A stretch of DNA of 45,205 nucleotides. Source: Candidatus Bathyarchaeota archaeon (GTDB taxonomy: Archaea; Thermoproteota; Bathyarchaeia; 40CM-2-53-6). Shown here in pieces: positions 35,454 through 44,249 of this stretch (its first letter is position 1; each line of letters opens with the position of its first letter). Under the pieces are notes generated by a model. The model was not told the origin of the DNA, did no database searches, and was given only the letters and a program-made list of their open reading frames with translations. A program made the position numbers and the translations under genes. The stretch covers positions 1 through 45,205 of the forward strand of contig VBBD01000024.1 of the NCBI GenBank assembly GCA_005882895.1, given 5' to 3'.

Positions 35454-36476
35454 CTAATCGTCATCGGTAATCGTCTTTGCAAGAAGATCCAATGATACAT
35501 TACCGCCCGATATGACTAGCACAACTTTCTCACCAAGTTTCTCTAGATCCCTGTTGGCGAGTAGGACAGCGGCCGGCGCCGCTCCAGAGGGCTCTGGGAA
35601 AATATGGGCTTCACGAATCAATAGTTTCATTGCCGCAAGGATCTCGTCGTCCGAAACATTGTAGACGCCATCTACGTGCTTCCTGCATGCTTCAAGAGTT
35701 AGTTCTCCTACCGCTGAAGGGATAAGCCCGTCCGCGATAGATTTCGGCGAATCGAATGTGACAATCTTCCCGGCTTTGAGCGCTGCTTGGAGTTTCGGCG
35801 CTCCCTGCGGTTCGACCCCGTAGACTTTCGCTTTCGGCTTTAGCGATTTGATCGCGGTGGATATACCGGAGATGAGACCCCCTCCGCCAACGGGAACTAT
35901 TACCGAGTCGAAGTCGTCCAGTTGATTCGCTATCTCTAGCCCGCAGGTTCCTTGACCAGCGATTATGTCAGGGTCGTTGAACGGATGTACGAGTGTCGCT
36001 CCGGTCTTGCTGACTATTTCCTTAGCTTTCGCATCACGATCAGTCGTATATTTTCCATACTTGATCGCTTCTGCACCATATTCGATGATGGTGTTGACTT
36101 TCTCTTGGACCGCTGTCTCTGGTAGTATGACGGTGCATTTCTTTCCAAGAAGTCGAGAACTGTAAGCTACTGCTATGCCATGGTTGCCTGAAGAGACCGC
36201 GACGATGTTCTTAGATGACAACTGTGAGATCTTGTTGTAGGCTCCTCGAATCTTGAAAACCCGTATGGGCTGGAAGCATTCGAGCTTCAAATAGACCCTG
36301 CGACCGAATCTCTTCGAGAGTGAGGGCGATTCCACAAGCGGGGTCTTGGCTGCTACTCCCTCGATCCGCCTGCTGGCCGCAAAAATGTCGTCCAGCGCCG
36401 GCAAATAGACTTGGTTCATGAATCCATCGGACATTTCCTTCCCCGGTTGAGGGTTAAAGGCACGCTCACAGGGCAA
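35454..36476 (-). CDS. ilvA: Threonine dehydratase/serine racemase-type PLP enzyme
   Basis: The 340-residue enzyme deaminates threonine to 2-oxobutyrate, feeding isoleucine synthesis, though serine dehydratase or racemase activity is possible. The PLP Lys lies in FKIRGA (K75 in the longest frame), and the phosphate cup is GGGGLISG. SSGNHGIAVAYSS and EPSGAAPAA are also typical. There is no ACT regulatory domain at the C-terminus, so the enzyme is the short, probably catabolic form. ATG codons at 36434 or 36419 may be the true start, since the first residues lack similarity. The dispersed repeat starts directly upstream. Confidence 0.92.
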   Translation of the reverse strand: MPCERAFNPQPGKEMSDGFMNQVYLPALDDIFAASRRIEGVAAKTPLVESPSLSKRFGRRVYLKLECFQPIRVFKIRGAYNKISQLSSKNIVAVSSGNHGIAVAYSSRLLGKKCTVILPETAVQEKVNTIIEYGAEAIKYGKYTTDRDAKAKEIVSKTGATLVHPFNDPDIIAGQGTCGLEIANQLDDFDSVIVPVGGGGLISGISTAIKSLKPKAKVYGVEPQGAPKLQAALKAGKIVTFDSPKSIADGLIPSAVGELTLEACRKHVDGVYNVSDDEILAAMKLLIREAHIFPEPSGAAPAAVLLANRDLEKLGEKVVLVISGGNVSLDLLAKTITDDD

Positions 36477-36745
36477 GAATCGCCTATTATCAGCCCTGAT
36501 CTCGATTCTGGAAATCCTCCATTAACTCTCCCGAAATTCGTTCGGAATTGTCGCCATCTTTCCAGTACCATCCCAGCCTGGATTGTGCCCTGATCAGCCT
36601 GTCTCGCCCATTATCACTGCCAGACAGGAAATGGTTTTTGGAAAATAGGGGGTCTTAGCGACCGACCCTCGTGTCGCATGAGCGGGAGTTCCCCAATTCC
36701 CCGTGAAAGATGCGCTTTTCACTGATGAGGGGAGGGCTGGCCTCA
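36476..36745. repeat. Dispersed ~267-nt element, copy A
   Basis: This gene-free stretch is colinear with 43845-44111. It begins with a conserved block (ATCGCCTATTATCAGCCC), has a diverged middle, and then a conserved block of about 125 nt from the second TCGCCCATTATC (36604) through GGTCTTAGCGACC, then a weaker tail ending near CTGGCCTC. The TCGCC-ATTATC motif recurs at 36480 and 36604, 124 nt apart, exactly as in copy B. CCTGTCT and AGACAGG (36598-36604 and 36621-36627) form a hairpin with a 16-nt loop. It lies between the 5' end of ilvA and the 3' end of the nicotinate phosphoribosyltransferase gene. Confidence 0.75.
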
Positions 36746-36756
36746 AACCCCTTCGT

Positions 36757-37959
36757 CTAGGGGGCACTCAGTCGCCCTATCTGGTCAAGCACTCTTTCGC
36801 GAATATGATCCGCCGAGGGAAGCGCTTTTGATAATCGGCCTTTCGAAAGAAGTGGTGCCAGCAACTTGCCCATTTTTCCTCCGCAGTTCGGACATTTGAG
36901 CGCGGTTACGGTGGCCCCGGTTACCTTCTCTGTCAGACAGTCTTCGCATCTCCAGACCATTTTCCTCCCGCCCAACTTCCCTCTCTTTGCCACAGGTTTC
37001 CCGTCAGCCTCCACAATGTCCAAGGCGAAGTCGATGCTAGGCGCGTTACTTACAGAAGTTCCAACTCCGAATCCGTCAGCTCCCGCGAGAGATAGGTCAC
37101 CGACGGATTCATCGTTCAGTCCACCTGAGACGAAAATCTTCACGTGGTTGTATCCTCTCGAGTCCAGCTCCCATCTTACCTCGCGAATAATTTCGCCAAA
37201 ATTCCCCCGTCTGGAGCTAGGCGTATCCAGTCGGACCCCGTTGAGATCTTTACCAAGCGCTTCAGCAGCCATGATAGACTCCGCCTTCTCATCATAGTAA
37301 GTGTCGACCAGAGCGATCCTGGGCACCTTCTTCGGCATGTGCTTGTTGAAGCTCTTCCACGCCCTAACCTGGTCTCCCATTGCGATTATCAGCGAGTGAG
37401 GCATTGTCCCCGCTGGATCCTTCCCGAGAAGCCTCGCCCCAACAATGCTGGAGACCTCGTCGAAACCGCCAATGTAACACGACCGGTCGATCATAGGGGC
37501 CAGAGCTGGATGAGCTCTGCGAATCCCAAAAGAGAGGAGAGTTTTCTTGTCGGCCGCTCTCCTCACCCGCGCCGCCATGGTCGTGATCCCGGACGCCTGG
37601 CAGAGAAGTCCGAGTAGTGGTGTCTCGTAGAGACAGAAATCCAAGTATCGGCCCTCAAGCAACATGACAGGCTCTCTTACGCCTTCCACGTCACTTGAAT
37701 GAAACAGAGTTCCTTCTGGAAAAGAGTGAACATCGATTGGTACACCTTCTAGAAGATGAGCTGCTTCCTCAACCCCAGCGAGGATTCCCCATTCCCAATT
37801 CCTGGGAAGCGAGCCAGTCGTTATCTCGGCAGTTACGTGAAGATCGGATAGTCCTTCTTTTTCGAGAATCTCTTTTGTGCGTGTGAAATAGACGTCGGTT
37901 GTTTCTGCGTTCTTGATCTCGTCATCACTTGCCACCTGGAACTTTCTCAAATTAGTCAC
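36757..37959 (-). CDS. pncB: Nicotinate phosphoribosyltransferase with C-terminal zinc ribbon
   Basis: This 400-residue enzyme makes nicotinate mononucleotide from nicotinate and PRPP in NAD salvage. FGIRRAHPA, YYDEKAE, RLDTPSSRRG, IFVSGGLNDE and the FGVGTSVSNAP PRPP-binding segment match the archaeal family. Near the C-terminus two Cys pairs (CEDC and CPNC, around residues 342-367) form a zinc ribbon, which occurs in some archaeal members. It is divergent from the GfcR-like PRPP-binding regulator gene with 120 nt between. TTATAA at 37981-37986 is a good minus-strand TATA box, giving a near-leaderless transcript. Confidence 0.93.
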   Translation of the reverse strand: MTNLRKFQVASDDEIKNAETTDVYFTRTKEILEKEGLSDLHVTAEITTGSLPRNWEWGILAGVEEAAHLLEGVPIDVHSFPEGTLFHSSDVEGVREPVMLLEGRYLDFCLYETPLLGLLCQASGITTMAARVRRAADKKTLLSFGIRRAHPALAPMIDRSCYIGGFDEVSSIVGARLLGKDPAGTMPHSLIIAMGDQVRAWKSFNKHMPKKVPRIALVDTYYDEKAESIMAAEALGKDLNGVRLDTPSSRRGNFGEIIREVRWELDSRGYNHVKIFVSGGLNDESVGDLSLAGADGFGVGTSVSNAPSIDFALDIVEADGKPVAKRGKLGGRKMVWRCEDCLTEKVTGATVTALKCPNCGGKMGKLLAPLLSKGRLSKALPSADHIRERVLDQIGRLSAP

Positions 37960-37980
37960 TGTCGGGTCCCCTTGATCGAA

Positions 37981-37986
37981 TTATAA
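37981..37986 (-). promoter_or_regulatory. TATA box of pncB
   Basis: On the minus strand TTATAA in the context GATTATAATTC lies 22-27 nt upstream of ATG 37959, so transcription would start at or next to the start codon. It stands out in GC-rich surroundings. Confidence 0.6.
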
Positions 37987-38033
37987 TCTTAGGGTAGGAA
38001 ACTTCCCTCTTTCCGGATACAGCATCTGACAAG

Positions 38034-38056
38034 TTATAACTAGGCTCAACGAGCCT
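38034..38056 (+). promoter_or_regulatory. gfcR-like promoter: TATA box with adjacent palindrome
   Basis: TTATAA at 38034-38039 is followed 2 nt later by a perfect palindrome AGGCTC-AAC-GAGCCT (38042-38056). The palindrome falls between TATA box and expected transcription start (about 38062-38066), where binding of a repressor would block RNA polymerase. Start GTG is at 38080. Autoregulation by the gene product is a reasonable inference. Confidence 0.6.
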
Positions 38057-38079
38057 CAATAGCGTAGGTCAGTTAGACT

Positions 38080-38694
38080 GTGAGATCACTGGAAGAACTA
38101 GCGAAGAGCGCTCGCGAGCTGAAAGAACGCGGCATGTCCACGTACGAAATAGCTGATGAGCTGAAGGTTCAAGCAGACACGGTCGTCTGGCTCCTGCTCC
38201 ATGGCAAAGAGGGAGTCAAGACAAAGGAAGCATACGACGTCTATGTTAACTGGAACCCAATAGGGTCCAGCGTTCGGCGCCTAACCCTAGTGGGCCGAGC
38301 AATGGCGGACATGGTCCGTGAAGCAGTAGAGGCCGGACTGATGGAGGAACCTGAAGTTGTAGCAGGGATCGAGAGCGGTGGAATGGCCCTAGGACTCATC
38401 GTCGCAAGATCACTGAACAAACCCATCGCCTCCGTACGACCCCAGAGACTAGGCGAGAAGAAAGTCGCTGGCGCAGTGAACCCTAGCTTCTCAAGAGTCG
38501 AAGGGAAGAAGGTTCTGATTGTCGACACAATACTACGGATGGGAGAGACGATTAGGGCGGCCATCGAGACCCTTACTGGAGTCAAGGCCAAAGCTGTAGG
38601 AGTTGTCGTTCTTGCCAACAAGAGCGGCAAAGAGAGTATCGAAGGAGTTCCTCTACGATCGCTTGTTGAGCTTTTGCCTGTGGCAAAGCAGTGA
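38080..38694 (+). CDS. GfcR/PyrE-like regulator: HTH plus phosphoribosyltransferase domain
   Basis: The 204-residue protein starts at GTG 38080. It has an N-terminal helix-turn-helix (residues 17-40, RGMSTYEIADELKVQADTVV) followed by a PRTase domain (about 60-200), as in haloarchaeal GfcR and archaeal orotate phosphoribosyltransferase-like proteins. The PRPP-loop position reads VLIVDTILRMGET at 145-157, with Asp-Thr for the usual Asp-Asp, so catalysis may be weak. GfcR-type proteins sense metabolites and regulate transcription. It is divergent from pncB with a shared upstream region, so PRPP or NAD salvage control is a possible role. Confidence 0.85.
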   Translation: MRSLEELAKSARELKERGMSTYEIADELKVQADTVVWLLLHGKEGVKTKEAYDVYVNWNPIGSSVRRLTLVGRAMADMVREAVEAGLMEEPEVVAGIESGGMALGLIVARSLNKPIASVRPQRLGEKKVAGAVNPSFSRVEGKKVLIVDTILRMGETIRAAIETLTGVKAKAVGVVVLANKSGKESIEGVPLRSLVELLPVAKQ

Positions 38695-38757
38695 GCCGCC
38701 CATCAGTTAAAGGGAATAGAAAGATAGAAGAGGATCCAATCCGAGTCAAAAGCGTGC

Positions 38758-38766
38758 AATTATATC
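38758..38766 (+). promoter_or_regulatory. TATA box of the ribbon-helix-helix gene
   Basis: AATTATATC lies 37-45 nt upstream of ATG 38803 and is the only AT-rich block in the gap 38695-38802. Confidence 0.5.
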
Positions 38767-38802
38767 CTACGGATGCGGCCGGTATAACGGAAGCGTAGAG
38801 AA

Positions 38803-39018
38803 ATGCCAACCAAATTCATGCAGTCCCTCGACCCACAAGTCTACGCAGAACTCCGGAAGATCGCGAAGGACAGAGGCATAACCATGCAAGAGCTAATCAG
38901 AGCCGTGATCGTCCCCGATTGGATGAGAAAGGATGGCACGAGCTCAGGCGGATCTCCAAGGAGATCTCGAACGGCACGCAACGCACCCAAGAGAGCTAGA
39001 ACCAGGATTACGGCGTAG
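38803..39018 (+). CDS. Small ribbon-helix-helix DNA-binding protein
   Basis: The 71-residue protein has an N-terminal strand and two helices (PTKFMQSLDPQVYAELRKIAKDRGITMQELIRAVI) in the CopG/Arc ribbon-helix-helix pattern at residues 2-37, followed by a basic tail rich in Arg, Ser and Lys. It probably binds DNA as a dimer. A TATA box lies just upstream. It is not paired with a toxin-like gene, so a toxin-antitoxin role is not supported. Small proteins with this plan are common in Thaumarchaeota. Confidence 0.75.
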   Translation: MPTKFMQSLDPQVYAELRKIAKDRGITMQELIRAVIVPDWMRKDGTSSGGSPRRSRTARNAPKRARTRITA

Positions 39019-39083
39019 CCAATCAAAGCCCAGGCAACGCTTATTTCTCGGCTGACGCAAGACTCCGAGTTGAAGAGTCAACG

Positions 39084-39506
39084 TTGTCCGCTCAAGATCG
39101 AGCCCCCGCCTATGCGATCTCACTACTCGCAGGAATATTGACATTCATCGGTGGACTGGCCAAGGCATCTACCGCTGGGATTATCAAATACACTGCTTCC
39201 GGAGCGACCTTCAACAATTTCGTGGGGAATAGTGTCCGGTCGACCAATTTCGGTTTCGCGCTAGCGAGCGCACGAATCTCCGCAGTCATTTTGATTCTCT
39301 CTGGAATCCTGGTCTTGGTTAGTGCAGTTGTGATGAGTTTTCGGTCTCATCAATACCCTGCATGGGGAACTGTCATCCTAGTATTATCGGTGGTCGGGCT
39401 CTTTGCAGGCGGCAACTTCCTTACAGGGGTCGGGTCGGTCCTTGGAATAATAGGGGGACTTTTGGCAATTACATACAGAACAGCCCCGCGTTCCGTGCCT
39501 GCGTGA
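39084..39506 (+). CDS. Four-helix integral membrane protein of unknown function
   Basis: This frame of 140 residues starts at TTG 39084. Four hydrophobic segments are visible at about residues 10-28, 58-86 (possibly one long or two short), 93-110 and 113-130. The last two are Gly-rich (VVGLFAGGNFLTGVGSVLGIIGGLLAI). No family is recognised; the general plan is like the protein at 4848-5393. It lies between the ribbon-helix-helix gene and the P5C dehydrogenase gene. Confidence 0.65.
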   Translation: MSAQDRAPAYAISLLAGILTFIGGLAKASTAGIIKYTASGATFNNFVGNSVRSTNFGFALASARISAVILILSGILVLVSAVVMSFRSHQYPAWGTVILVLSVVGLFAGGNFLTGVGSVLGIIGGLLAITYRTAPRSVPA

Positions 39507-39604
39507 TTCCCCCGACCTAAAGTTTTCAACCGGCTCCCCGAGCGAGGCTTTGGCCAGCCGTAGTCTTATCTTCAGCCTCTGATCAGTTACTTGTCAGGAA
39601 TGCC

Positions 39605-41185
39605 TTGAGTCCAGAAACAAAGCTGACCTACGTTACCTTGCTCGCTGACCCGAGCATTCATCCGAAATATGAATCCGCACTGAAACAGGTCGAAGCTGAA
39701 TTTGGGAAACACCATCCAATGTTCATCGACGGCCGAAAAGTTCTCGCAGGAGAGGGAGAATTTGATGTCAGAAGCCCTCTCGATACAAAGATCCTCATCG
39801 GGTATTTCCAGAAGGGAACACCCCAATACGCCCGCAAAGCCATCGAAGCCGGCAAGGACGCGTTCGAAGAATGGAGCAAGAAACCCTGGACAGAGCGAGT
39901 TGCCATCATCCGGAAAGCCGCGGACCTGATGGAAGAGGAGCGGTTCAAGCTTGCAGCGCTAATCACATACGAGGTCGGCAAGAACCGGTACGAAGCCGTC
40001 GCGGAAGCAAGCGAAGCAATCGACATGCTCGACTACTACGCTGACTTGATGGAACAAAGTGATGGATACGTGAAGCCTATGCAGCCAGGTGCACCGGGAG
40101 AAACATCGAAGAGCGTTCTCCGTCCCTACGGTGTGTGGGCAGTCATTTCCCCGTTCAACTTCCCCCTAGCGTTGGCGGCAGGCATGGTTGCATCCGCATT
40201 GGTCACCGGCAACACGGTTATATTTCATCCCACTAGCGCCGCGCCTTTGGTGGGCCTCAAGCTCTACGAGATACTAATCAACGCTGGAGTGCCACCAGGG
40301 GCCCTGAGCTATCTCACTGGTCCCGGCGAGTCCTTCGGCGACGAAGTCACCAGGAACCTCGACGTCGCCGGCATCGCGTTCACCGGCTCAAAGGATGTTG
40401 GCATGAAGCTCTACCGCGACTTCGTGAACAAGCAGCCATATCCGAAACCGTTCATCGCTGAGATGGGCAGCAAGAACCCGGCCGTGATCACGTCCAACGC
40501 CGACCTGGAAAAGGCGGCAGAAGGAGTAGTCAGAGGCGCTTTCGGATACAGCGGCCAAAAATGCAGCGCCACATCACGAGTATACGTCGAGAGAGGGATA
40601 AGGAACGATTTTCTCAAGATCCTCAAGGACAAAGTAGACCATCTAAAAGTCGGAGACCCCAGGGAGAAGGATGCTTTCGTGGGCCCTGTGATTAACGAGA
40701 AAGCAGTGAAGAAGTACCAGCGCTATCTCGAACTAGCCAAAAAGGACGGTGGGAAGATAGTTGCTGGAGGTGGCCTGCCAGAAGACAAGAAACTGTCCAA
40801 AGGCTACTATGTCAGACCAACAGTGGTTGCGGGCCTGCCTTCCAAGGATCGTCTCTTCAAGGAGGAACTCTTCCTGCCTTTCGTTGTCGTTGATGAGGTC
40901 AAGAGCTTGGACGAGGCGTTGAAGAAGGCAAACGACACGGACTTCGGCTTGACTGCAGGAATCTTTAGCAACGACCAGAGCGAGGTTGACATTTTCTTCA
41001 AGAACATCGACTTCGGCGTCACATATGCGAACAGAAAAGGCGGCGCAACAACAGGCGCCTGGCCAGGCTCTCAATCGTTCGGTGGCTGGAAGGGAAGTGG
41101 AGCGACAGGCAAAGGAGTCGGCGGACCGTACTATCTGCTGGAGTTCATGCACGAACAAGCCCAGACCATCGTCAAAGACGCCTAG
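39605..41185 (+). CDS. L-glutamate gamma-semialdehyde (1-pyrroline-5-carboxylate) dehydrogenase
   Basis: This 526-residue enzyme is an aldehyde dehydrogenase of the RocA/PutA type and oxidises glutamate gamma-semialdehyde, the open form of P5C, to glutamate, the last step of proline or arginine breakdown. The catalytic Cys is C320 in GYSGQKCSATSRV and the general base Glu E286 in AEMGSKNP; GSKDVG is the NAD loop. FMHEQAQTI at the end is typical of the subfamily. Start TTG 39605 fits the N-terminus. No proline dehydrogenase gene is adjacent. It is convergent with the RecJ-like gene, with a 4-nt stop overlap. Confidence 0.93.
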   Translation: MSPETKLTYVTLLADPSIHPKYESALKQVEAEFGKHHPMFIDGRKVLAGEGEFDVRSPLDTKILIGYFQKGTPQYARKAIEAGKDAFEEWSKKPWTERVAIIRKAADLMEEERFKLAALITYEVGKNRYEAVAEASEAIDMLDYYADLMEQSDGYVKPMQPGAPGETSKSVLRPYGVWAVISPFNFPLALAAGMVASALVTGNTVIFHPTSAAPLVGLKLYEILINAGVPPGALSYLTGPGESFGDEVTRNLDVAGIAFTGSKDVGMKLYRDFVNKQPYPKPFIAEMGSKNPAVITSNADLEKAAEGVVRGAFGYSGQKCSATSRVYVERGIRNDFLKILKDKVDHLKVGDPREKDAFVGPVINEKAVKKYQRYLELAKKDGGKIVAGGGLPEDKKLSKGYYVRPTVVAGLPSKDRLFKEELFLPFVVVDEVKSLDEALKKANDTDFGLTAGIFSNDQSEVDIFFKNIDFGVTYANRKGGATTGAWPGSQSFGGWKGSGATGKGVGGPYYLLEFMHEQAQTIVKDA

Positions 41186-42366
41186 ACAGCCAATCGATCT
41201 ATCTCATCCAAGAACATCTTTTCCTTTCCTATTGGAAACACGCCCGAGGCTGCAACCGAGTGTCCATCGCCGAAGCCGCCGATCTTCGAGCATGATTCAG
41301 GAAGAATCTTCGACAGTGGCGGTTTAGTTCCCTTCTTGATAAGGCTCGTAAGGATCTGAGGGGATCTTCCCGAGACCTTTGCCATTGAGGAGGATAATTT
41401 TCCCCAACCGGGAATATCCGGTGGCACGTTCATCATTCCGATCAAGTACTTGACGGGGTTGACGACACGCTGGTAGCGTAGGTAGGAGCAGAAGCTTCCG
41501 ACTACTTTTCCTCCCATGCCTTTGTAGTTGTCGTGGGCGTGAAACCATTGGATATTCTTCATCTGCGAAAGACCATCCCTCTCGATCGTCGAAAGCATCT
41601 TCCGGTTGGCCTGTTTTCGTTCCTCCTCAAACTCTTTGGCCCTCTCCATCGTTTTCCCGCTGAAACCGTTTGTACACGCTTCGATGCCCATCTCAGGCCC
41701 GTTTCGGTAATATCCGACTGAGCCGAGAATATTGAGGAGGCTTGAGGCTCGCGTTCTGGTAAGACTCATGCCCTCAGCCTCGATCCTAAAGTCCCCCTTG
41801 CGAGAATCCCGAACCAGTCCATGATCTTTCGCGTCCTTCACGGCGATCAGGTTGAGTCCCTGCGTTTCGCCGGGTATTTCTAGAGACCCTATCGTCGCTA
41901 GATGAGCGTAGCGGGACAGTTCAGTATCGACCGTTTTGCAGAACAGATAGGCTACTGTTGCGGAGGAGGCGTCTTTCTCGCCTGAAAAACCGTAGAGTTC
42001 AGGGTTGAGATTGTAAAGCAAGGGATTCTGAGTGAAGGTTGTGTCGTGGTGGTCCAGAACCAAGATTAATCCTTTGGAGGTGTTTGCTTCGACCAACCAG
42101 TCAATGTGTCCGGAGCCTAAGTCGACGTAGGCTGCGACCTGAGGACGACCTGACTCAATGTCTTTGACAACTTCTGGGTACAGCTTGTCCAGACAGATTA
42201 GTCTGGTGTTGAGCCCGAGACTTGATAGTGCGAGTTGCGTTAGTGCTGCCGACGTTAGCCCATCTGCTTCATCGTGATGGAGAACGACTGCTTCTCGGAT
42301 AGCAGACTCTCGGACAGCGGACACCGCAGAATCTAATCTTTCTTGGAGACCGTGAAGGCGTTGCAC
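41182..42366 (-). CDS. Archaeal RecJ-like DHH phosphoesterase
   Basis: This 394-residue protein starts with GTG at 42366. It has the DHH family motifs: HHDEADG at residues 30-36 (motif I), YVDLGSGH, and LDHHDT near residue 104 (motif III), followed by a C-terminal DHHA1 domain ending in GGFGDGHSVAASG. Archaeal members act as single-strand DNA or RNA exonucleases, and some associate with the GINS/replisome. This gene is upstream of leuS-region genes and follows the RNA methyltransferase gene on the same strand with 12 nt between. Nuclease activity is likely, but the substrate (DNA or RNA) is not settled by motif reading. Confidence 0.85.
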   Translation of the reverse strand: MQRLHGLQERLDSAVSAVRESAIREAVVLHHDEADGLTSAALTQLALSSLGLNTRLICLDKLYPEVVKDIESGRPQVAAYVDLGSGHIDWLVEANTSKGLILVLDHHDTTFTQNPLLYNLNPELYGFSGEKDASSATVAYLFCKTVDTELSRYAHLATIGSLEIPGETQGLNLIAVKDAKDHGLVRDSRKGDFRIEAEGMSLTRTRASSLLNILGSVGYYRNGPEMGIEACTNGFSGKTMERAKEFEEERKQANRKMLSTIERDGLSQMKNIQWFHAHDNYKGMGGKVVGSFCSYLRYQRVVNPVKYLIGMMNVPPDIPGWGKLSSSMAKVSGRSPQILTSLIKKGTKPPLSKILPESCSKIGGFGDGHSVAASGVFPIGKEKMFLDEIDRLAV

Positions 42367-42378
42367 GGGGTCCTCATC

Positions 42379-43536
42379 TCAGTTCTTGACAAATCGCGCA
42401 ATGAAATAGCCTGTCTCGTGAGTATCGGGATTGAATCTCTGCGTGAGATGATCTTGATCGAACCCGTTCTCACCAAGAAGCGGGAATTGTTTCTCCAGCG
42501 TCAACCCCAATTCTCTCTGGGCGAAGCCCACGACGTCTTCGCACTCTTCCTTAGTAATCGTGCAGACGCTGTACACAATTGTTCCGTCTTTCTTGGTGAT
42601 GTGAGAGGCAGCGGTTAGAAACTGTTTTTGATAGTCCGCCGAGTTCTCAACGTTCTGCACCGTAGTCTTGATCGCAAGCTTCGGGATTATTCCGAGAGCG
42701 GAACAAGGCGGGTCCACCAACACTCTGTCGGCTTTGATGTTGTAGTCTATGTGAACATATCTGGAGTCATGGCATATCAGTTGGTAGTTTGTGCAGCCTA
42801 GTCTCTCCATGAGTTGCTTTGTCTTCTGGATCTTCTGTGTGTTGCGGTCGAAGCCGATTATCCGAGCACGGTTTTGGGTTAGCTGGCTGATGTGACTTGT
42901 CTTGCCGCCAGGTGCGCAGTTGAGGTCGACTATGGCCTCTCCCGGTTTCGGATCCAAGATATGGCTTGTCAGGATGGCTGGAAGTGACTGAAGGTGGATA
43001 TGTCCATCCGCGTAACACGGGGTTTCCATTATGCTCGGCAAACCCGTTCTGCTGATCTTGATCTCCACCGCGACTCCCTGTCGATACGTCAAGACGCTTG
43101 TTTCGCTCTGGTGTGAGACCCCAGAGCCGACAGCCGTTCCGTTCCCGTCAACGACTGTTACTCTCATGCCCGGTCGCAACCCATGGCATCGCTTTACGCC
43201 GGGAGCGTAGAGATGTGCGCCTAGTTGAACAGCTTCCGCGGCAATCCTATCCGCTTCCACAATATTCCCGTCAGTTTCTATCCTTGAGGGGCGAGGATGG
43301 ATGAACGCAGCATCCTCTAGCCGCTCGTGAGCTTCAACGTGCAGACCGGTGGACATCATAGATTGGATGGTGGCGTCCCGTTCAGCTTTGAGCGTGTTTA
43401 TCCGAAAATAGTATCGTGAAGGCATAGCGAGCATCGAAGATAGAACTCTATCGGTTCGTTGGCCGTAGAATCCGCGGAGACGGCTCTCTAGTTCTGGATC
43501 AAGTCGCAACCGTCTCTCGGGAAGCTCCAGGAGCAA
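42379..43536 (-). CDS. NOL1/NOP2/Sun (RsmB-type) RNA m5C methyltransferase with PUA domain
   Basis: This 385-residue enzyme methylates C5 of cytosine in RNA. The order is an N-terminal region (1-90), a PUA-like RNA-binding domain at about 90-170 (AHLYAPGVKRCHGLRPGMRVTVVD within it), then the catalytic domain. SAM motif I is IVDLNCAPGGKTSHI; the DPPCSALG motif IV with its Cys and SVCTITKEECED motif VI with the nucleophile Cys are intact. A PUA insertion like this is seen in archaeal tRNA or rRNA m5C methyltransferases such as the NSUN6 group. It is upstream of the RecJ-like gene on the same strand, probably in one operon. Confidence 0.9.
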   Translation of the reverse strand: MLLELPERRLRLDPELESRLRGFYGQRTDRVLSSMLAMPSRYYFRINTLKAERDATIQSMMSTGLHVEAHERLEDAAFIHPRPSRIETDGNIVEADRIAAEAVQLGAHLYAPGVKRCHGLRPGMRVTVVDGNGTAVGSGVSHQSETSVLTYRQGVAVEIKISRTGLPSIMETPCYADGHIHLQSLPAILTSHILDPKPGEAIVDLNCAPGGKTSHISQLTQNRARIIGFDRNTQKIQKTKQLMERLGCTNYQLICHDSRYVHIDYNIKADRVLVDPPCSALGIIPKLAIKTTVQNVENSADYQKQFLTAASHITKKDGTIVYSVCTITKEECEDVVGFAQRELGLTLEKQFPLLGENGFDQDHLTQRFNPDTHETGYFIARFVKN

Positions 43537-43619
43537 CGCTGTGTTCGCTTTACTGTCGGGAGGCTTTCTGGTTTAATTACCCTTGACTTTCGCTCGGGGA
43601 GAAGAAAAGGATCCCCTAG

Positions 43620-43823
43620 ATGGCAAGAGTGGTCTTGGAGCTTCGCTGCGTGAAATGCGCGGTCAAGTTTGAGCGGACCTTCGAGGAGAGGAGGAGACAA
43701 CTCAACTATTCTGAGGGAGAAATGTTGCAGCTAGACGCGAAAGCCTGCCCCAACCATTGCGGCGGAGACTGGTTCTCGATCGAAAAACAGCATCCAATCC
43801 GCAAGTTCAAGCGGCGATTCTGA
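43620..43823 (+). CDS. Small zinc-finger protein
   Basis: The 67-residue protein starts at ATG 43620. It has a zinc-binding pattern with CVKC at residues 10-13, and C43, H46, C47 (KACPNHCGGDW) further down, enough for one zinc finger or ribbon. The sequence is otherwise basic at the end (RKFKRRF). No family is recognised. It is divergent from the methyltransferase gene with 83 nt between the starts. RNA- or DNA-binding is possible. Confidence 0.7.
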   Translation: MARVVLELRCVKCAVKFERTFEERRRQLNYSEGEMLQLDAKACPNHCGGDWFSIEKQHPIRKFKRRF

Positions 43824-44249
43824 CCGGGATACCCAACAAGAACGAAAATCGCCCATTATCAGCCCTGATTCAAGATCTGAACAGGCTCACTTGCAAAACG
43901 GGATATTTCACGCTGTAAACGCGGATAATGCCCCACCGATCCAAGCCCAGACCGTGCTTTGATCCGCCCGTCTCGCCCATTATCGATGCCAGACAGGAAA
44001 TGTTCCTGGAAAATAGGAGGTCTTAGCGACTCGATCCCGCGACACAAGAGTGAAAGTTCCAAGCTCCTTCGAATGATCGGCGTTTCACTAACAAACGAGG
44101 AACTGGCTTCCATTCGTGAACTCATTTCTTCGTGTCTCGAGTCCGATTAGACCGGTTACGTTCCGTGCGAGTTACTCAAGGCTTAAACCGGGTCTTTCGC
44201 AAGCTACAATTCGATACCCTATAGAAGAGACGGAATTCCGGGATATGGA
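43824..44249. other. Gene-free interval holding repeat copy B
   Basis: No protein gene that I can support lies here. Most of the interval is the dispersed element (43845-44111). The remaining 138 nt up to the next start contain no clear TATA box; AT-rich stretches near 44195-44225 (TTTCGCAAGCTACAATTC) may hold the promoter of the downstream gene. Confidence 0.6.
43845..44111. repeat. Dispersed ~267-nt element, copy B
   Basis: This copy is colinear with 36476-36745. Matching blocks are the first 27 nt (AATCGCCCATTATCAGCCC and after), then about 125 nt from the second TCGCCCATTATC (43973) through GGTCTTAGCGACTCG, then the tail TTTCACTA...CTGGCTTC. The duplicated TCGCCCATTATC motifs are 124 nt apart (43849 and 43973), as in copy A. 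Minus- and plus-strand frames through it are only fair as coding sequence, and a 1-nt indel relative to copy A breaks them, so a noncoding or mobile element fits better. Confidence 0.75.

Follow-up and report, generated by a model that had tools for sequence, protein, structure and literature searches.

A dispersed Bathyarchaeota repeat family that probably propagates mainly onto its own copies at shared intergenic addresses

A 45,205-nt stretch (the window; positions 1 to 45,205 of contig VBBD01000024.1) of a Candidatus Bathyarchaeota archaeon (assembly GCA_005882895.1) carries two related intergenic sequences, copy 1 and copy 2, each of which contains a repeat unit of about 208 nt. On balance, both copies probably belong to a lineage-specific, non-coding and non-autonomous repeat family that propagates mainly onto its own existing copies. 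As a rule, dispersed repeats either remain where they are or spread to new, scattered positions, whereas here the addresses appear to be inherited and their contents swapped in the manner of cassettes, yet without a recognised cargo gene or enzyme. If true, this would imply that little-known uncultured archaea possess a recombination reaction not described so far, or that gene conversion is very frequent in them, and the units could serve as short markers of recent exchange between these species.

Addresses and units in related genomes

The genome containing the window (G000) was compared with relatives likewise designated by G numbers, and many unit-bearing loci of these relatives could be aligned through their flanks to unit-bearing G000 loci. 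The set from G009 comprised 31 loci (30 stretches around model matches plus locus L058), of which 24 were paired with a G000 locus, 23 by BLAST on both sides and one (C19_39800) on one side only. Six loci with no partner among the extracted pieces (L161, L162, L170, L183, L185 and L186) were left out, as was L173, the flanks of which fit two G000 loci. Flank identity at the paired loci was mostly 84-95%, with single pieces at 70-79%; at C42_4717, C14 and C26 the bases adjacent to the unit aligned poorly on at least one side. Of the 24 paired loci, 12 had a best unit identity between the two genomes of 0.62-0.73, and 12 of 0.78-0.97. Given that units from unpaired loci show a median identity of 0.68 (95% point 0.83; n=552), half of the addresses hold units that are no closer to each other than to those of other addresses. 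Window copy 1 stands at one of these replaced loci (unit identity 0.68), and at several replaced addresses the flank is kept right to the unit edge on one or both sides, for example on the left at C65 and C32 and on the right at C69, C35_29684 and C43_12952.

The two window addresses were also followed across species, using only units scoring at least 60 bits and leaving out genomes without such a unit. The flanks are 77-88% identical across genomes at both addresses. At the copy-1 address (9 units from 8 genomes), 1 of 35 cross-species pairs had a unit identity of at least 0.75; at the copy-2 address (8 units from 7 genomes), this was true of 1 of 27. The profile found no unit at the copy-2 address in G013 and G014, and none at the copy-1 address in G001 and G015. 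At another address, C81 (L203, G000:C81:20300-26300), 2484 nt in G000, including a large frame resembling a surface protein and a partial unit, stand against a single unit in G009; the idea that this stretch is an autonomous element occupying the place of a unit was set aside. Taken together, the data support a renewal of the family at shared addresses, either by insertion through a site-specific reaction or by gene conversion through host recombination.

Movement between addresses is best seen with one unit type, V, which together with its linker forms a 242-nt block. Using the block found in G009 at the copy-1 address as query, identities of 98.8% (G009 L186), 97.5% (G000 C43), 97.1% (G000 C10) and 93.3% (G009 L170) were obtained, and a match on G000 C60 was 97% identical over unit plus linker. 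At all six loci another unit follows, but these followers are mutually 0.60-0.80 identical, and no match was found among the six left flanks (at C60, only 198 nt of flank exist). The presence of nearly the same block in front of unlike units indicates that a unit with its linker moves apart from its follower. Single V units without the linker also occur (C67, 97.7%; C15, 94.4%; L182, 93.0%). With near-identical copies at unrelated sites in two species, the family shows this trait of the broad class of non-autonomous dispersed mobile repeats, and the earlier proposal of a mobile element is thereby supported as far as movement between loci is concerned; the flanking duplications that had been named as the check on mobility were not found (see below).

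The unit, the window copies and their distribution

The units are about 205-225 nt long and are arranged singly or head-to-tail. Each consists of a 5' block that is conserved (AAATCGCCCATTATCAGCCCTGATC), a variable middle occurring in several types, a middle block carrying the second TCGCC-ATTATC motif and GCCAGACAG, and a 3' block, GGGGGTCTTAGCGAC...CGACGCAAGAGTGG. In this genome, 16 tandem pairs are joined head-to-tail by a linker of 23-28 nt; in the relatives, a few gaps between units deviate from this (12 to 73 nt), some of them adjoining partial units, and C52 has two units in opposite orientation. With thresholds of our own choice, 153 of 5050 unit pairs looked mosaic, i.e. related in one part and unrelated in another. 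The second units at C10 and C43 are 0.90 and 0.94 identical in their outer parts and 0.52 in the middle. By eye, the stretch between a unit's two GCCCTGATC repeats appears to have been lost at the copy-1 address of G012; when units with a collapse between the two motifs were sought elsewhere, the matches were all dubious, and some proved to be intact units on the opposite strand.

The features of the two window copies are as follows.

36478..36685, + strand: repeat unit, copy 1 (profile match, all 208 positions; middle type with CCGAAATTCGTTCGG)
36480..36491, + strand: first TCGCC-ATTATC motif, copy 1, within the conserved 5' block (motif scan)
36604..36615, + strand: second TCGCC-ATTATC motif, copy 1 (motif scan)
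36686..36745, + strand: 3' terminal segment, copy 1, loosely common with copy 2 (by eye)
43847..44053, + strand: repeat unit, copy 2 (profile match, positions 1-207; middle type with ACGCTGTAAACGCGGATAAT)
43849..43860, + strand: first TCGCC-ATTATC motif, copy 2 (motif scan)
43973..43984, + strand: second TCGCC-ATTATC motif, copy 2 (motif scan)
44054..44111, + strand: 3' terminal segment, copy 2 (by eye)

A first-pass annotation of this DNA had described a two-copy intergenic element of ~267 nt with paired motifs 124 nt apart. The relatedness of the copies was confirmed: they align at 79% over 75 nt and at 73% over an overlapping 59 nt, and share a long block (36570-36692 and 43939-44060; BLAST E 2.1e-22). 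The window contains four sites matching TCGCCCATTATC with at most one mismatch (36480, 36604, 43849 and 43973), all inside the two copies, as compared with a mean of 0.11 and a maximum of 1 in 100 shuffles. The 124-nt spacing was found in both copies, and both are indeed intergenic. As to length, the unit of ~208 nt is well conserved, whereas the last ~60 nt are loosely alike by eye and vary by locus; this 3' terminal segment seems to belong to the address rather than to the unit. The count of two did not hold, for BLAST with copy 1 gave 54 matches in this genome.

A profile built from the extracted pieces identified 58 units in 39 pieces, rising to 64 in 44 after five more stretches were added, and a model of the 3' half gave at least 66 matches, a lower bound in that 99 of 539 first-look candidates were scored. 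Additional copies lie on C60, C17, C29, C32 and C21, at least two of these copies being at contig ends, and the real count is therefore probably larger. Among the 18 genomes of the genus, 11 have 42-66 matches and seven have 0-6. In all, 18 of the 41 genomes searched have matches, and one genome of another genus in the family holds 12. A class-wide search, in which at most 15 candidates per genome were scored and from which G008, with one weak match before, dropped out, found matches in 17 of 256 genomes belonging to 2 of 108 genera, all in one family. The genome collection was also scanned with an exact pattern, giving 32 stretches, every one of them from a metagenome-assembled genome (MAG) titled either Candidatus Bathyarchaeota archaeon or Candidatus Crenarchaeota archaeon. 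Depth labels (for instance 30cm) suggest that the repeat-carrying MAGs come from soil. Weaker matches (E up to 0.05) occur in G018 (31), G010 (12), G003 (12) and G016 (9), where the block order is kept in an altered form (26 of 64 loci aligned). The family is best read as lineage-specific, non-coding and non-autonomous. Separately, four loci of G018, a genome of the sister genus (L135, L138, L142 and L147), were seen by eye to carry a related element with apparently three TCGCCC-type motifs instead of two.

With respect to neighbouring genes, a simple frame finder placed genes on both sides of 57 arrays in G000 and G009; the two neighbours are convergent at 22 of these, co-directional at 24 and divergent at 11. 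A further 9 arrays lie at edges and 12 overlap a predicted frame. It appears from this placement that the arrays are tolerated between genes rather than serving one particular neighbour. The units could still act as regulatory modules, as had been suggested, although the neighbouring genes show no constant orientation. Copy 1 is flanked by genes for a pyridoxal phosphate (PLP)-dependent enzyme and a QRPTase-like protein (Pfam), both on the minus strand. Next to the PLP-enzyme gene, the high-copy species of the genus differ in sequence from the low-copy ones (35454-36757 compared with loci L067-L071; five low-copy genomes), and in the latter the profile found no unit there. Upstream of copy 2, a 67-codon frame (43620-43823, by eye) is recognisable in relatives, and an 88-aa minus-strand frame is present within copy 2. 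A coding remnant was rejected as the origin of the unit, the indels over the unit length preserving, by eye, no frame.

Candidate mechanisms and competing explanations

If the family propagates mainly onto its own copies, an incoming unit would enter at the 5' boundary of a resident unit, giving the junction ...GCG/AAATCGCC (the slash marks the boundary), and old units would be lost or replaced by recombination through the conserved 5', middle and 3' blocks. Addresses would persist in this way while their contents turn over. Junctions of this kind could be produced by a circular one-unit intermediate, or by template switching in the 5' block of ~25 nt. As for the mover, our guess is a host factor, either general homologous recombination or the one tyrosine-recombinase-like protein of the genome. 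A more specific form of the model is a gene-free cassette exchange, in which addresses marked by a resident unit take up units of ~240 nt at the 5' boundary and lose older ones, units also crossing between species, by an undescribed site-specific recombination, possibly of a host Xer type acting on the TCGCC-ATTATC blocks; we regard this version as speculative and rather improbable.

Four enzyme families were surveyed in the 18 genomes of the genus. The Y1_Tnp transposase was found in none of them (5 of 14 control genomes were positive), a serine resolvase in one, a reverse transcriptase in one (this genome) and a tyrosine recombinase in 17; none of the four tracks copy number, which speaks against them as movers. 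The single PF00589 match of G000 covers profile positions 98-167 and lies in a 213-aa frame, which may be Xer-like; frames of similar length matching the same part of PF00589 occur in high-copy genomes and in the low-copy G008. The reverse-transcriptase domain (G000:C40:2208-2861, L212) lies within an open frame of 1003 aa.

A number of observations weigh against propagation by movement of units. No terminal inverted repeats were found when the start of the unit was compared with the reverse complement of its end (mean best score 4.65, shuffled 5.41; 81 units), nor when the linker was included (4.86 versus 5.10; 80 units). Neither were target-site duplications detected at 40 single-unit loci, where the longest string common to the two flanks averaged 3.40 nt, versus 3.42 nt for mismatched loci, and 3.75 versus 3.79 nt farther out. 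A separate inspection of four copies and one unrelated stretch also revealed no transposon-type ends or duplications, and the absence of flanking duplications means that the repeat is not a classic duplicating transposon. No autonomous partner was found among the four enzyme families, other transposase families not having been searched, and viral contigs gave no match to two exact patterns, which would miss diverged copies. The C43 address, which holds V plus a second unit in G000 and one unit in G009, does not demonstrate a clean insertion: the G009 unit is 0.78 identical to the second G000 unit, with flanks at ~90%, and 0.90 identical to a unit elsewhere, so that a swap plus a gain explains the data equally well. 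More generally, gene conversion among copies could explain most of the replacements. Furthermore, all compared genomes are apparently metagenome assemblies. Finally, 15 unit pairs were taken as kept; among them, changes affected 113 of 1441 conserved-column cases and 199 of 994 variable-column cases (70 of 958 and 82 of 661 in the ten pairs that look least mixed), the columns having been classed from the same sequences and some pairs having a swapped middle. This hints at a possible constraint in place, of uncertain size.

The units may be functional where they stand, e.g. as protein-binding DNA in chromosome organisation, being kept alike and swapped by ectopic gene conversion with no dedicated movement; we consider this possible, if on the unlikely side. 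It would account for the lower rate of change in conserved columns, for the persistence of addresses across species, and for the conserved blocks, which recur in every subtype and, though altered, in another genus, and ectopic gene conversion alone suffices for the observed replacements. However, the V block is 97-99% identical at four loci where followers and left flanks are unlike, which under conversion would require tracts that stop time after time at one and the same unit boundary. In addition, each window address lacks a profile-detected unit in two relatives (copy 1 in G001 and G015, copy 2 in G013 and G014), so an address can be lost, and the orientation of the neighbouring genes is not fixed. 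It is most improbable that the swaps are artefacts of repeats mis-joined during metagenome assembly. The assemblies are fragmented, and some contigs (C17, C21 and C35) end inside units, but the swapped units differ by ~30%, from which we reason that mis-joining is unlikely; moreover, low unit identity at shared addresses recurs in several assemblies, and most paired loci are alignable through both of their flanks.

For the first-pass proposal of a non-coding RNA, the candidate would be a family of structured RNA genes whose variable middle might be guide-like. Two hairpins can be drawn from the majority sequence of the 3' half, with 78.9% of cells pairing, and pairing drops to 26-38% when the partner is slid, as is expected of hairpins drawn from a consensus; the pairing is 78.8%, however, when columns are shuffled among sequences. 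The hairpin CCTGTCT/AGACAGG is present in many copies, and its left arm often changes without the right arm. RNAalifold predicted 8 pairs in the 3' half, 2 of them with two-sided changes, and 4 pairs with no two-sided change in the full unit. On neither strand did the 48 best-scoring of the 58 units show an excess of folding (mean z -0.28 and -0.45), these fold tests having been run on units of mixed subtypes rather than per subtype. None of the 4227 Rfam models matched the window at gathering thresholds, and none matched six loci of this genome up to E 1. With Rfam, RNAalifold, the z-scores of both strands and the drawn-hairpin test all giving no support for a conserved fold, this explanation was rejected as very unlikely. 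Propagation mainly onto existing copies remains our preferred reading.

Comparison with known systems and a second repeat

The family resembles several known systems in part. Clustered regularly interspaced short palindromic repeat (CRISPR) arrays share the outline of a head-to-tail array next to a boundary; they differ in unit length and in having identical short repeats, which are lacking here, and the present units occupy dozens of separate addresses. Repetitive extragenic palindromic (REP) sequences and REPINs, as outlined in PMC3116915, are likewise short, non-autonomous, extragenic and present in many copies per genome. REPINs are described there as doublets in inverted orientation, with predicted hairpins and a link to RAYT tyrosine transposases, whereas the paired motif here is a direct repeat 124 nt apart, a hairpin is unsupported and Y1_Tnp is absent from the genus genomes. 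Miniature inverted-repeat transposable elements (MITEs) and the enterobacterial repeat units RU-1/2/3 (cf. PMC2759123) share with this family a size of 100-250 nt and a dispersed intergenic location without a recognised gene. Unlike MITEs, the units have no terminal inverted repeats or target duplications, and new units seem to be directed to existing copies.

Integron cassette arrays, including archaeal clusters of attC sites lacking integron integrases (CALINs), also stack head-to-tail at fixed sites with contents that vary between genomes, and CALINs lack IntI, as outlined in PMC9668308. In contrast to integron cassettes, the units here are short and carry no recognised gene, and the genome has one short tyrosine-recombinase match, a comparison that rests on the general PF00589 profile rather than on an IntI-specific profile or an attC detector. 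No description of the family was found in the open-licence literature on archaeal repeats and integrons, covered mostly at the level of titles and abstracts.

A second dispersed repeat of ~70 nt was also observed, with GACCCC..GGGGTGGTC as inverted repeat, TTTTCCCGCGCCCCGCCCTTCGTGA as tail, and 17 distinct matches in the examined sequence. At the six loci listed here it lies beside a unit, 19-23 nt upstream on the same strand.

L011:1726-1793, ~70-nt repeat
L038:1229-1295, ~70-nt repeat
L120:444-511, ~70-nt repeat
L098:6305-6370, ~70-nt repeat
L179:2305-2372, ~70-nt repeat
L112:6112-6141, ~70-nt repeat

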